DNA from: Chromatiales bacterium
GTDB taxonomy: Bacteria; Pseudomonadota; Gammaproteobacteria; Steroidobacterales; Woeseiaceae
Assembly: GCA_004282875.1 (NCBI GenBank)
Contig: SHLT01000016.1
Coordinates: 1-37,196 of the forward strand
Reading direction: 5' to 3'
DNA: 37,196 nt
The translations under genes were made by a program, and so were the position numbers. The stretch's first letter is position 1; every line of letters starts with the position of its first letter. This document shows positions 23,976 to 37,167 of the stretch, one piece after another. The notes under the pieces were generated by a model that was not told where the DNA came from, did not search any database, and worked only from the letters and a program-made list of their open reading frames with translations.

Positions 23976-24096
23976 GGGCAAGGCCGGCAGCCCGGCTGTC
24001 TTGGGGTCCTTCGTGGCGTAGCAGAATGCGTCGCGGAGGAAGCGAGGACCCGTGGCTTTGCGTCACTGACTTTGGTCAGGTTTGCCTTTGCCTGAG
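23976..24096 (-). promoter_or_regulatory. Cyclic-di-GMP-I (GEMM-I) riboswitch, copy 1
   Basis: On the minus strand: GGCAAAGGCAAA, a stem CTGAC-CAAA-GTCAG, the hallmark GACGCAAAGCCACGGGTCC (24064–24046), a long peripheral stem closing with GGACCC, then GCCGGGCTGCCG. P1 can form from GGCAA and TTGCC. The position equivalent to G20 of the Vibrio Vc2 aptamer appears to be G and the C92 equivalent is C, favouring c-di-GMP over cGAMP (alignment by eye). The leader to the ATG is about 35 nt without a poly-U hairpin, so translational control is likely. Confidence 0.93.
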
Positions 24097-33370: not shown

Positions 33371-34392
33371 AAGCACTCGTCAAGGCGAAAGCGGAACGCG
33401 GCATCTGGATGGAAGACATCGACAAGCCGCACGTCGGTCACAACGATGTCCTGATCAAGGTCAAGCGCACCGCAATTTGCGGCACGGACATTCACATCTT
33501 CAAGTGGGACGACTGGGCTCAGGCGACGATCCCGGTGCCGATGGCCGTGGGTCACGAATTCAGTGGCGAAATCGTTGATATGGGGATCGAGGTAAAGGGC
33601 TTCGAGATTGGCGATCGGGTCTCCGCCGAAGGACACATCACCTGCGGTTACTGCCGCAACTGCCGGGCCGGACGTCGCCACCTGTGCATGAATACCGTCG
33701 GCGTTGGCGTGAACCGCCCCGGCGCTTTTGCGGAATATCTGTCAGTTCCTGCCTTCAACGCTTTCAAGCTTCCCGACGCCATCACGGATGAGATGGCGTC
33801 GATTCTCGATCCGCTCGGCAATGCAACGCACACTGCCTTGTCGTTCGACCTCGTCGGCGAAGACGTGCTGATTACAGGCGCTGGTCCTATCGGCATCATG
33901 GCCGTTGCGATCGCACGCTACGCTGGTGCGCGCCACGTGGTCATCACCGACGTCAACGACTATCGCCTGGACCTTGCCCGCACGATGGGAGCGACGCGCG
34001 CGATTAACGTCACCTCAACGTCGATCGATGAGACCATGAAAGAACTCGGCATGGTCGAGGGCTTCGACGTAGGCATGGAAATGTCGGGTAACCCGCAGGC
34101 GTTTCGCGACATGCTCCGTACGATGCACCATGGCGGGAAGGTTGCGATTCTGGGAATCCCGCCCGGCGACATGGCCGTCGACTGGAACGACGTCATCTTC
34201 AAGGGCCTGATCCTGAAGGGCGTCTACGGCCGCGAGATGTTCGAGACCTGGTACAAGATGTCCAGCATGCTGCAAAGCGGCCTCAACATGGAGCCGATTA
34301 TCACGCATCACTTCGACATCGATGAGTTTCAGCCGGCGTTCGAACTCATGGAATCCGGACAATCCGGTAAAGTCATCCTGCACTGGAATTGA
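33367..34392 (+). CDS. tdh: L-threonine 3-dehydrogenase
   Basis: 341 aa zinc alcohol dehydrogenase family, standard length. Catalytic zinc region [17 protein letters not shown] and GHEFSGEIV; structural zinc cysteines in [18 protein letters not shown]-binding [20 protein letters not shown]. It oxidises threonine to 2-amino-3-ketobutyrate, the substrate of Kbl. It is coupled to kbl (ATGA) and its own stop overlaps the next gene (TTGA). Confidence 0.98.
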
Positions 34393-35630
34393 TCAACGCC
34401 CTCCGCATCCTGTTATTGCTGACCTGCTGTACAGCGCAGGCGACGGACGTTGTTGCGTATTCGAACTTCGCGAAGAGACAGGGTGGCATTGCCGCGGCCT
34501 GGGCCAACGGCGCGGATGGCGTCGAGATAGATGTACGCGTTTCAACGGACGGTACCGTCTACGTGTTCTACGATGGCCTGCTCGAGACACCGGGGCTGGA
34601 CGATCGAACGTACAGCGAAATTCTCGAAACCTACACCTACGACCTTCCGACGCTGGCCGCGCTACTGCGTGACGCGCCACATTCCGGTTACTTTGTTTTC
34701 GACCTCCGTATTTCAGACATGGAACGCGTCGGCTTCGCAGTTGCCGCAATCCGGCTGAGCCAGATCCCAACCGAGCAAATTGTCCTTCAGAGTGACGACA
34801 TCGATGTGCTGGCGGCGGTCAGGGAGCTATGGCCGGAAGTCACGCGGTCTTACGCATCCACAACGCACGGCATCTTACCGTTCGTAGCCCCGGCATCCCC
34901 GTCCGAACTGGCCGGCTTACTGGCCGCGAACGAGATCGACCGCGTCAGCCTGAAAGGCAGGCTCTTGCTGGATGCCGAGTTCATCAAAACCCTCAAACTC
35001 AAGGGCCTGGAGGTCCACGTCTGGACAATAAATTTCGGCGCTCGAATTGAACATTACCTGCAGCTGGACGTTGATGGCATCGTTACCAGGCGCCCCAGCA
35101 CCGTCAGAAAAGAGATCGGGCGATTTATCAGGGCGTCGGCACGTCCTCGAACCGCAATCTTTCCGCGGGCGCGCATTGTTACCACGGACCCGAATCTGCA
35201 CTACTACAGGCAAATCCGGGAATCGGTCCTGGACCCGAAGTCGCAATCCGATACCCTATTTCACGCTCCACAGCCATCGCAGGTCCCGGTGCAGGTTGCC
35301 TGCCATGAAATCGAGCGCCTCGGCGTGATAGTGGATGTCGTGCACACGTTGCCAAAATCAGACTACGCCAGCGAACTGGCCTGGGCGAACCGAACCGGCC
35401 GAGCGCTCATTCAATACTATTGGACTCACTCCGCTTACCCGGACGACGATCGCATCTTCTACTCGCGAAGCCGAGTCTATCCGCGTCGCCAGAGCTTCGT
35501 CACGGCCGGAACCATGGGGCTAAAACAGAAACATCGGCTGGACGGCACTATCAAAGTGCGAATCACGCAAGACGAGACGGATATTTACGAAACCACGTTC
35601 AATCTCGTTGGATGCGAAAACGACCGCTAG
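34389..35630 (+). CDS. Degenerate GDPD-like secreted protein with unknown C-terminal domain
   Basis: 413 aa with a signal peptide (about 1–18). Residues about 20–230 resemble glycerophosphodiester phosphodiesterases: [37 protein letters not shown] and a late [30 protein letters not shown]. The catalytic HRG/ENT region is replaced ([11 protein letters not shown]) and the family's FHD is FYD, so both catalytic His are missing and it is probably not an active phosphodiesterase. The C-terminal 160 residues match no domain I recognise ([15 protein letters not shown]…, [14 protein letters not shown]). TTG 34389 overlaps the tdh stop. It is convergent, four bases away, with a riboswitch-controlled peptide gene. 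Confidence 0.68.
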
Positions 35631-35634
35631 TTTC

Positions 35635-35721
35635 CTAGGGCAGCTGACCTGTCGCAAAGAAGAAGACAACAAGCATTGCCAGCAGGACAACAGATACCGG
35701 GATTTTGTAGGTGAAGAACAT
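35635..35721 (-). CDS. 28-aa single-span membrane peptide under c-di-GMP riboswitch control
   Basis: A 28-residue peptide: a short N-terminus (MFFTYK), one strongly hydrophobic helix (about 7–24, VSVVLLAMLVVFFFATG) and the end QLP. ATG 35721 has GGAGGG about five bases upstream. The frame is open further upstream only because it runs through the riboswitch. The combination of riboswitch, ribosome site and hydrophobic helix argues for a real small protein. It resembles other one-helix regulators of membrane complexes only in general shape, and no family is recognised. Confidence 0.72.
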   Translation of the reverse strand: MFFTYKIPVSVVLLAMLVVFFFATGQLP

Positions 35722-35751
35722 TACGCCCTCCTGTGGTTTGGCTATAGACCA

Positions 35752-35868
35752 TGTCGGCAGCCCGGCGATCTTGGGTCCTTCGTGGCGTTGCAGAAAGCGT
35801 CGCGGAGGAAGCGAGGACCCGTGGCTTTGCGTCACTGGCTTTTGCCAGATTTGCCCTTTCGCGACCTT
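35752..35868 (-). promoter_or_regulatory. Cyclic-di-GMP-I (GEMM-I) riboswitch, copy 2
   Basis: Minus strand: GTCGCGAAAGGGCAAA, stem CTGGC-AAAA-GCCAG, hallmark GACGCAAAGCCACGGGTCC (35833–35815), peripheral stem closing with GGACCC, then GCCGGGCTGCCGAC. P1 forms from GTCG and CGAC. Very similar to copy 1, including the peripheral insert. The G20-equivalent looks like G. The leader to the ATG is about 30 nt with no terminator. Confidence 0.93.
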
Positions 35869-35896
35869 AGTATGCCCGAGGGTGTGCAACTGTCAA
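35869..35896 (-). promoter_or_regulatory. Predicted promoter of riboswitch copy 2
   Basis: Minus strand TTGACA (35896–35891), 16-bp spacer, CATACT (35874–35869). The predicted start is at about 35863, the 5' strand of P1. Confidence 0.68.
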
Positions 35897-35943
35897 TTCG
35901 GTAAAGTGCTTATCGTTCACGTCAACTTAAGTAATTCCCAGAA

Positions 35944-35971
35944 TTGACTGCGTCTGCCAGGAGCGCAAACT
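35944..35971 (+). promoter_or_regulatory. Predicted promoter of riboswitch copy 3
   Basis: TTGACT (35944–35949), 16-bp spacer, CAAACT (35966–35971). The -10 is weak, but the geometry is that of the other two riboswitch promoters and the start would fall at about 35978, the first P1 base. Confidence 0.55.
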
Positions 35972-35976
35972 ACGTA

Positions 35977-36089
35977 CCGCGACAAAGGCAAATTCGATGA
36001 AAGTCGAAGACGCAAAGCCACGGGTCCTCGCTTCCTCCGAGATGTATCAGGCAGCTTCACGAAGGACCCAAGATCGCCGGGTTGCCGCG
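35977..36089 (+). promoter_or_regulatory. Cyclic-di-GMP-I (GEMM-I) riboswitch, copy 3
   Basis: CGCGACAAAGGCAAA, stem TTCGAT-GAAA-GTCGAA with a GNRA tetraloop, hallmark GACGCAAAGCCACGGGTCC (36009–36027), peripheral stem closing with GGACCC, then GCCGGGTTGCCGCG. P1 uses CGCG on both sides. The G20- and C92-equivalents look like G and C. Downstream, CCGC-GTTGA-GCGG and GCGGA…TCCGC can form mutually exclusive hairpins just before the AAAGGAG ribosome site, a possible expression platform. With copy 2 it fills the 405-nt gap between the two genes. Confidence 0.93.
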
Positions 36090-36126
36090 TTGAGCGGAGT
36101 ACAACCTATCCGCAAAGGAGAAGGCG

Positions 36127-37167
36127 ATGAAAATTTCACCATCAAGATTCATGGCGGCTACTGCCGCTTGTTTGACCCTGTCCGCGGCCGGTGCGTTTGC
36201 TAATCCCTACGTCGTCAACTGCGACGAGGGCGATCTATTGCAGGACGCGCTGGGCAAAGCCGCAGGCTCTGCAAAGCTGATCGAGATCAATGTTTACGGT
36301 ACGTGCTACGAAGATCTTAGGTTCAGCCGTGACGATGTCAGGATCTACGGCGACGGCAACACGACCATTGTGGGTACTGCCCGCTTCTTTAGTGCCAAGG
36401 GCGTCTGGTTTGAGGACGTCAATTTCACGGGACCCGGTGACGGCCTGAGAATTGTTGACGGCAGGATTCGGTTAATCAGATCCCATATATCGGGCAACAT
36501 CGGCGACGGCATACTCGTTACCCAGAACGGAACGATCAACCTCACCGGCTGCTTCGTCGAGCACAACAGCGGAGCCGGCATAGTGCTCAATAATGCATCG
36601 ACTCGCATTCGCAATACGCAGGTTACGAACAACGGCGCTGACGGAATTGTGGTGACAAACAATGCAGCATTGAACTTCGCCGGCGGCGGGATCAACTACC
36701 ACGAAAACGGATTCGGAATTCGCGCCTCGAACAGCTCGTCGATTGACCTGAGCGACACCCATATCGGTGTCAGCAATCCTGTCGGGATCGGCCTGAGCCT
36801 GGGATCGACGGGGATTACCGATAATTCCTACGCGAATGCCAACGCCGAGATCGGAATTTTGCTGGAGACTAACTCCGCACTGGAGTTCAACGGCGGCGGT
36901 ATTTCATGGAATGGCCTCTATGGCGCCTATGCGAGATCGCATTCGACCCTCAGCCTCAGTGGTGTCAGCGTCGACAACAACGCGGCCCATGGCATTGTTG
37001 TCGAATCCGACGCCGCATTGTTTGCCGGGGACGGCACGCGTGTTGAGTACAACACGGCAGGTGATAGCGTGCAGATCGAGTGCCGCGACAAGGAATCGAG
37101 CATCGACATCGATGGCTCAGTGGTCGTTACTCCCCCGATGATCAACTGCCCTGACCCGGACTTCTGA
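36127..37167 (+). CDS. Secreted right-handed parallel beta-helix repeat protein
   Basis: 346 aa with a signal peptide (about 1–26, ending GAFA). From about residue 60 the protein is a run of 20–24-residue coils with Asn/Asp and G-I-x-V/L patterns (e.g. SGNIGDGILVTQNGTINLTG, NNGADGIVVTNNAALNF, DNNAAHGIVVESDAALF), typical of pectate-lyase-like beta-helices. Cys occur in pairs near both ends (VNCDEG, GTCYED; IECRDK, INCPDP). It may bind or cleave a polysaccharide, or be a structural surface protein; no catalytic residues can be assigned. ATG 36127 follows AAAGGAG. It is controlled by the riboswitch upstream. Confidence 0.85.
   Translation: MKISPSRFMAATAACLTLSAAGAFANPYVVNCDEGDLLQDALGKAAGSAKLIEINVYGTCYEDLRFSRDDVRIYGDGNTTIVGTARFFSAKGVWFEDVNFTGPGDGLRIVDGRIRLIRSHISGNIGDGILVTQNGTINLTGCFVEHNSGAGIVLNNASTRIRNTQVTNNGADGIVVTNNAALNFAGGGINYHENGFGIRASNSSSIDLSDTHIGVSNPVGIGLSLGSTGITDNSYANANAEIGILLETNSALEFNGGGISWNGLYGAYARSHSTLSLSGVSVDNNAAHGIVVESDAALFAGDGTRVEYNTAGDSVQIECRDKESSIDIDGSVVVTPPMINCPDPDF

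Follow-up and report, generated by a model that had tools for sequence, protein, structure and literature searches.

As a second messenger, c-di-GMP is a lifestyle signal, and short ORFs of the kind that might answer to it are often missed by gene callers. The locus considered here raises the question of whether a complete c-di-GMP riboswitch can have a peptide of only 28 residues as its target and, if so, what such a peptide might do. It lies in a contig of Chromatiales bacterium (assembly GCA_004282875.1, contig SHLT01000016.1), of which positions 1 to 37,196 were analyzed; this whole stretch of 37,196 nucleotides is termed the window. We regard it as probable that the locus is a stand-alone micropeptide gene controlled by c-di-GMP, the 28-aa product of which acts in trans from the inner membrane. 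It would then provide a clean case of a second-messenger riboswitch for which a micropeptide is the one evident target, and a way into the roles of micropeptides in transitions between motility and attachment.

Organization of the riboswitch locus

Read along the minus strand from position 35912 to position 35635, the locus comprises a sequence box that includes the -35 hexamer, an aptamer, a Shine-Dalgarno site and a 28-codon ORF ending in TAG (Table 1), so that the peptide frame with a ribosome site that an earlier note had placed behind the switch is found there. The same note had called the riboswitch complete, and the covariance-model search agrees: the Rfam c-di-GMP-I family (RF01051) matches over model positions 1-87 of 87 at 56.4 bits and an E value of 1.4e-8, the gathering score being 35. 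The alignment of the window aptamer contains the ligand-pocket core (GGCAAA, GACGCAAAGCC and GCCGGGCUGCC), which is nearly invariant in the consensus of 65 elements of the same subtype. The leader RNA is predicted to bind c-di-GMP. Three positions, G20, A47 and C92, presumably fall within this core. The same positions are described as important in a published account (PMC9049102). The source genome has 11 c-di-GMP-I matches in total; one of the further aptamers in the window diverges from the switch of the peptide across a gap of 112 bases and precedes a beta-helix protein.

Table 1. Positions of the features discussed, numbered from the first nucleotide of the window
Feature	Position	Strand	Basis
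22-nt regulon box overlapping the -35 hexamer (TAAGCACTTTACCGAATTGACA)	35891..35912	-	recurrence at peptide loci and extended-P3 elements
sigma-70-like promoter TTGACA-16-CATACT	35869..35896	-	consensus promoter scan, 10/12 matches
c-di-GMP-I (GEMM-I) riboswitch aptamer, extended-P3 subtype	35753..35865	-	Rfam RF01051 and alignment of 65 subtype elements
P3 bulge, 5' strand, pyrimidine-rich (CGCTTCCTCC); candidate anti-Shine-Dalgarno	35804..35813	-	conservation; function putative
Shine-Dalgarno site AGGAGGG	35726..35732	-	sequence
gene of the 28-aa predicted single-helix membrane peptide, stop included	35635..35721	-	homologs, alignment, pN/pS, hydropathy
28-codon ORF without stop	35638-35721	-	ATG at 35721, TAG ending at 35635
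GDPD-family ORF, next gene	34389-35630	+	convergent to the peptide gene
second c-di-GMP-I-clan aptamer, best family c-di-GMP-I-GGC	35978-36090	+	covariance-model search
beta-helix protein behind the second aptamer	36127-37167	+	ORF downstream of that aptamer
third c-di-GMP-I-clan aptamer, upstream of a 206-aa ORF without Pfam match	23983-24096	-	

A consensus promoter scan of window positions 35400-36200 located the promoter, although shuffles of the scanned region would by chance yield about 0.5 sites of this quality, so that the hexamers taken alone prove little. The claim that the riboswitch has its own promoter draws its strength from elsewhere, namely from the motif GAATTGAC, which recurs at this position upstream of the peptide in all eight loci at which the peptide was found.

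A conserved family of 28-residue peptides

Among 73 genomes of the genus, 23 were matched in the peptide search when E was allowed up to 1, and eight of these (G000, G013, G018, G023, G037, G105, G108, and G110) contain homologs of exactly 28 aa, a family delimited by a full-length or near-full-length homolog in a frame no longer than 85 codons with an E value of 5e-9 or better. The other 15 matches are weak (E of at least 6e-4). Two of them (G015 and G038) fall in the interior of a large membrane protein, two in short frames (G055 and G057) bear no resemblance to the peptide and have neither aptamer core nor box upstream, and the rest sit in frames of at least 187 codons.

The eight peptides align without gaps, with M1, K6, P8, V9, S10, L13, L17, and G25 invariant and with 54-68% identity of the other homologs to the window peptide. 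Their starts were fixed at the Shine-Dalgarno site, the GTG starts in G110 and G108 being our assignment. Pooled over the 28 pairs that the eight genes form, pN is 0.26 and pS 0.66, a ratio of 0.40; shuffling of alignment columns gave 0.93 +/- 0.17, none of 2000 shuffles fell as low as the observed value, and since the pairs are related and not independent this is a strong result to which no formal probability is attached. In addition, 1971 of the 2000 shuffles introduced a stop into at least one row. These observations indicate that the peptide is real and that its 28-codon frame evolves as coding sequence under purifying selection. A longer open frame is present in the window, running through the aptamer from a TTG start for 84 codons (35635-35889); in G018, G023 and G037, an in-frame stop occurs a few codons upstream of the peptide ATG, so that the start of the 28-codon frame, and not that of the 84-codon frame, is the conserved one. 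All eight genes end with TAG followed by G (window 35634-35637), perhaps by descent only.

A c-di-GMP-I-type aptamer scoring over a gathering threshold lies upstream of the peptide in seven of the eight loci, that is, in the window and in six of the seven relatives, the aptamer of G023 having the sister family c-di-GMP-I-GGC as its best match. Loss of the peptide frame behind conserved aptamers had been named in the earlier note as a possible refutation; the frame is instead kept behind an aptamer in seven of the eight homologs, window included.

The family appears confined to the genus within the samples searched: no member from another genus turned up among 396 genomes from the order or 369 from the class, each sample including genus members. 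The matches beyond the genus were weak (E 0.002-0.009), two lying inside long frames (G385 and G603), one being interrupted by a stop (G353) and one occupying a 25-codon frame that does not resemble the peptide and has no aptamer core or box upstream (G444). None of 78 pattern-matching stretches from viral contigs encodes a relative, and plasmids searched with the window peptide gave no match. No member has a match over the cut-off in Pfam or NCBIfam, or a sequence match in the PDB. FixS/CcoS (PF03597) was considered and set aside, the window peptide scoring 13.3 bits against a cut-off of 23.1 and only two of the eight members matching at E up to 1. The aptamer itself is of a known family.

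Every member has a single hydrophobic core, the best 19-residue hydropathy ranging from 2.04 to 2.49, with Lys and Arg confined to positions 5-6. Small single-helix membrane proteins of the CydX, KdpF and CcoQ types adjust larger complexes, and by general description the peptides resemble these in length and in their single hydrophobic helix; also by description, they are set apart by having a riboswitch of their own and no match in Pfam, NCBIfam or the PDB. The earlier note had suggested that the peptide modulates a membrane complex when c-di-GMP changes. The peptides are single hydrophobic segments and might act in this way. Size and hydrophobicity would equally suit a membrane-depolarizing peptide that arrests growth, resembling the toxin of a type I toxin-antitoxin system but gated by c-di-GMP instead of antisense RNA, and such a role would accord with a distribution over 8 of 73 genomes in varying genomic positions and with loss in a near relative (G030, described below). 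The fixed length and the eight invariant residues suggest specific contact, however, and nothing in Pfam or NCBIfam exceeded the cut-off, so that growth arrest seems to us quite unlikely.

The extended-P3 aptamer subtype and its regulon

The aptamer is of a subtype distinguished by a long extension of P3, in which a pyrimidine bulge is conserved. A search pattern for the long P3 matched in 24 of 73 genomes, the reversed control pattern in none. From the DNA fetched, 65 distinct aptamer strings were collected, identical ones being counted once; seven are elements with the peptide behind them, of which that of G108 is missed by the subtype pattern and entered through the peptide search only. The bulge reads CGCTTCCTCC in 42 of the 65, and CCT occurs in the bulge region of all 65. 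Where at least 90 nt of upstream sequence was available, ATTGAC was present in 57 of 64 elements and GAATTGAC in 51 of 64.

The wider box (TAAGTACATCCCAGAATTGAC) overlaps the -35 hexamer at two places in the window, 35891-35912 on the minus strand and 35931-35948 on the plus strand, and was also seen at L006, L010 and L123. It occurs ahead of extended-P3 riboswitches and also without them, and appears to be a recognition site for a dedicated activator or sigma factor. Allowing up to two mismatches, the box was found in 42 of 73 genomes, and its reversed control matched once in 73. The extended-P3 signature accompanied 12 of 29 inspected box sites, a count obtained with a simple test that misses some aptamers. 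By eye, sequence resembling a decayed aptamer can be made out at L151, L155, L158, L167, and L169, box sites without a recognized aptamer.

An ORF with a Shine-Dalgarno site was called behind 61 of the 65 elements, comprising the seven peptide genes, 50 ORFs of at least 60 aa and four frames of 2-24 codons (L088, L105, L115, and L136). The last, one of them at a contig end and the others probably a flaw of the start rule, were set aside with the four elements lacking such an ORF, eight of 65 in all. When the 58 ORFs of at least 20 aa were clustered by BLAST, the 28-aa peptide formed the largest group (7/58), followed by a group of five that includes the beta-helix type of the window. In a Pfam scan at E up to 0.001 of 49 of the 50 longer ORFs, one being left out for its undetermined residues, beta-helix proteins were the commonest (6), with single proteases, a pectinacetylesterase, cytochrome-type and Calx-beta proteins among the other families and a few cytoplasmic-looking products, such as OsmC and FAD oxidoreductases, as well. 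A hydrophobic stretch is present within the first 40 residues of 45 of the 50 longer ORFs as against 23 of 78 control ORFs. The subtype thus seems to stand mostly ahead of exported-looking proteins, and the regulon of box and extended-P3 aptamer could be mapped in these uncultured gammaproteobacteria.

That so many longer products behind the same switch begin with such a stretch bears on the origin of the peptide itself, which has a Lys-containing n-region, a hydrophobic core and, in most members, small residues at the end (e.g., ATGQLP or ASGALP). It could accordingly be a short exported or signaling peptide, or a freed signal sequence, in which a signal-peptide-like segment has been cut short by a stop. 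Against this, the stop and the G that follows it are kept in all eight loci, and cleavage near the end would release only a few residues; we consider this reading unlikely.

How the aptamer might govern translation of the peptide was approached by folding seven of the leaders. While the peptide follows an aptamer in seven of eight loci, folding gave neither a common expression platform nor a shared partner for the Shine-Dalgarno site, which was 0.19-0.62 unpaired across the seven. The conserved P3 bulge of the aptamer subtype (CGCUUCCUCC) is complementary to Shine-Dalgarno sites, making it attractive to regard the CUUCCUCC bulge as a built-in anti-Shine-Dalgarno. Because pairing of the bulge with the Shine-Dalgarno site (CUCC-GGAG) appears in the best structure of G110 only, and the bulge is altered at two peptide loci (G023 and G037), this role stays hypothetical.

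Genomic settings, proposed mechanism and natural variants

The eight peptide loci occupy about four genomic settings: adjoining tdh (window, G018, and G105), near a 2-oxoacid oxidoreductase or wax-ester-synthase-like region (G023, G037, and possibly G013), near hydrogenase-like genes (G110) and adjoining a DUF819 gene (G108). Neighbors were taken as the longest ORFs of at least 90 aa and not as annotated genes, and their names outside the window, DUF819 apart, are our reading of the translations. The downstream neighbor varies likewise, being GDPD in the window, tdh in G018 and other ORFs in G105, G037, G110, G108, and G013. The next ORF is convergent with the peptide gene in seven of eight loci, and codirectional in G023. 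For the window, the earlier note's statement that the downstream gene is convergent holds: the GDPD-family ORF lies on the opposite strand and so cannot be a conventional target. Extension of the minus-strand transcript into another gene, which would have told against the peptide as target, is made unlikely by the convergence at seven loci, but the point keeps some force from the codirectional ORF of G023 and from the window, where no terminator was found in a scan between the peptide gene and the GDPD ORF.

With no terminator found in the window beyond the peptide gene, transcription may continue into the GDPD ORF in antisense orientation, the two stop codons being only 4 bases apart. The riboswitch could in principle work through such read-through, controlling the convergent gene by antisense RNA. 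The downstream neighbor differs among the loci, however, and in G023 it is codirectional, which makes an antisense role highly improbable.

For a c-di-GMP-controlled micropeptide acting in trans, the following sequence of events is proposed. A promoter bearing the regulon-wide box would give rise to a short leader that folds into the c-di-GMP-I aptamer, the state of which would set translation of a single 28-codon message about 30 nt downstream; control at translation is proposed because no terminator-like site was found between aptamer and peptide start in the window. The product would be a single-pass inner-membrane peptide of 28 aa that, by the positive-inside rule, has its Lys-5/6 end facing inside. 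As no neighboring gene is constant across the loci, the peptide would act in trans, with a membrane partner encoded at another site, and would form part of a c-di-GMP program that switches a set of exported proteins. A wider claim may be built on this, which we put forward tentatively and think somewhat doubtful: that the peptides are a new micropeptide family serving as a dedicated riboswitch output and, for a regulon of exported proteins under c-di-GMP, as a small membrane actuator; that in this regulon one box and one extended-P3 subtype stand over dozens of genes of the genus, the peptide is the most recurrent target and the only short one among resolved copies, the family is possibly derived from signal sequences, and the aptamer may carry an anti-Shine-Dalgarno bulge.

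Targets of c-di-GMP-I riboswitches listed in a study of C. difficile and a review include flagella, an adhesin, a protease, gbpA, tfoX, and a chemotaxis protein, as well as three hypothetical proteins that are not described further (PMC6200980; PMC6366702). The window aptamer is typical of RF01051 in scoring over the gathering threshold with the conserved core present, and departs from the family in its long P3 extension with pyrimidine bulge and in having a mostly stand-alone 28-codon ORF as target. No pairing of a c-di-GMP riboswitch with a micropeptide was found in searches of open-license literature (CC0, CC BY, and CC BY-SA). The nearest stand-alone case appears to be the merRNA of Bdellovibrio, a c-di-GMP riboswitch downstream of which its authors, in the account given there, found no conserved ORF (PMC3627812). 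Each is a short transcript in which the c-di-GMP riboswitch is not followed by an ordinary gene. By this precedent, the RNA itself could be the product, a sponge or store for c-di-GMP with the peptide incidental, and such a function would fit a short unit that mostly stands alone, contains an aptamer and has no other constant target gene. In contrast to merRNA as described, the ORF here is conserved and selected, and one lineage (G013) retains the peptide without a detectable aptamer; a sponge is therefore very unlikely.

The genus offers natural experiments, with peptide and switch together, the peptide without a detectable switch, and both eroded. The peptide is present in 8 of 73 genomes as against 72 of 73 for c-di-GMP-I aptamers, and at this frequency it is dispensable for most of the genus. 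In the near relative G030, with flanks of 89-90% DNA identity to the window on either side, the 261 bp at window positions 35637-35897 are replaced by 73 bp (L180, about 2115-2187). The remnant retains part of the aptamer but neither the 5' side of P3 nor the hexamers of the promoter, and tblastn gave no match to the peptide in this genome at E up to 10. Promoter, switch and peptide have thus eroded jointly, as expected of one unit. G013 has kept the promoter box, Shine-Dalgarno site and peptide frame (L145, about 1300-1473), and no aptamer was found there, whether at the gathering level or with E allowed up to 10. A short GAAAAGGCAA stretch can be seen at this locus, by eye only.
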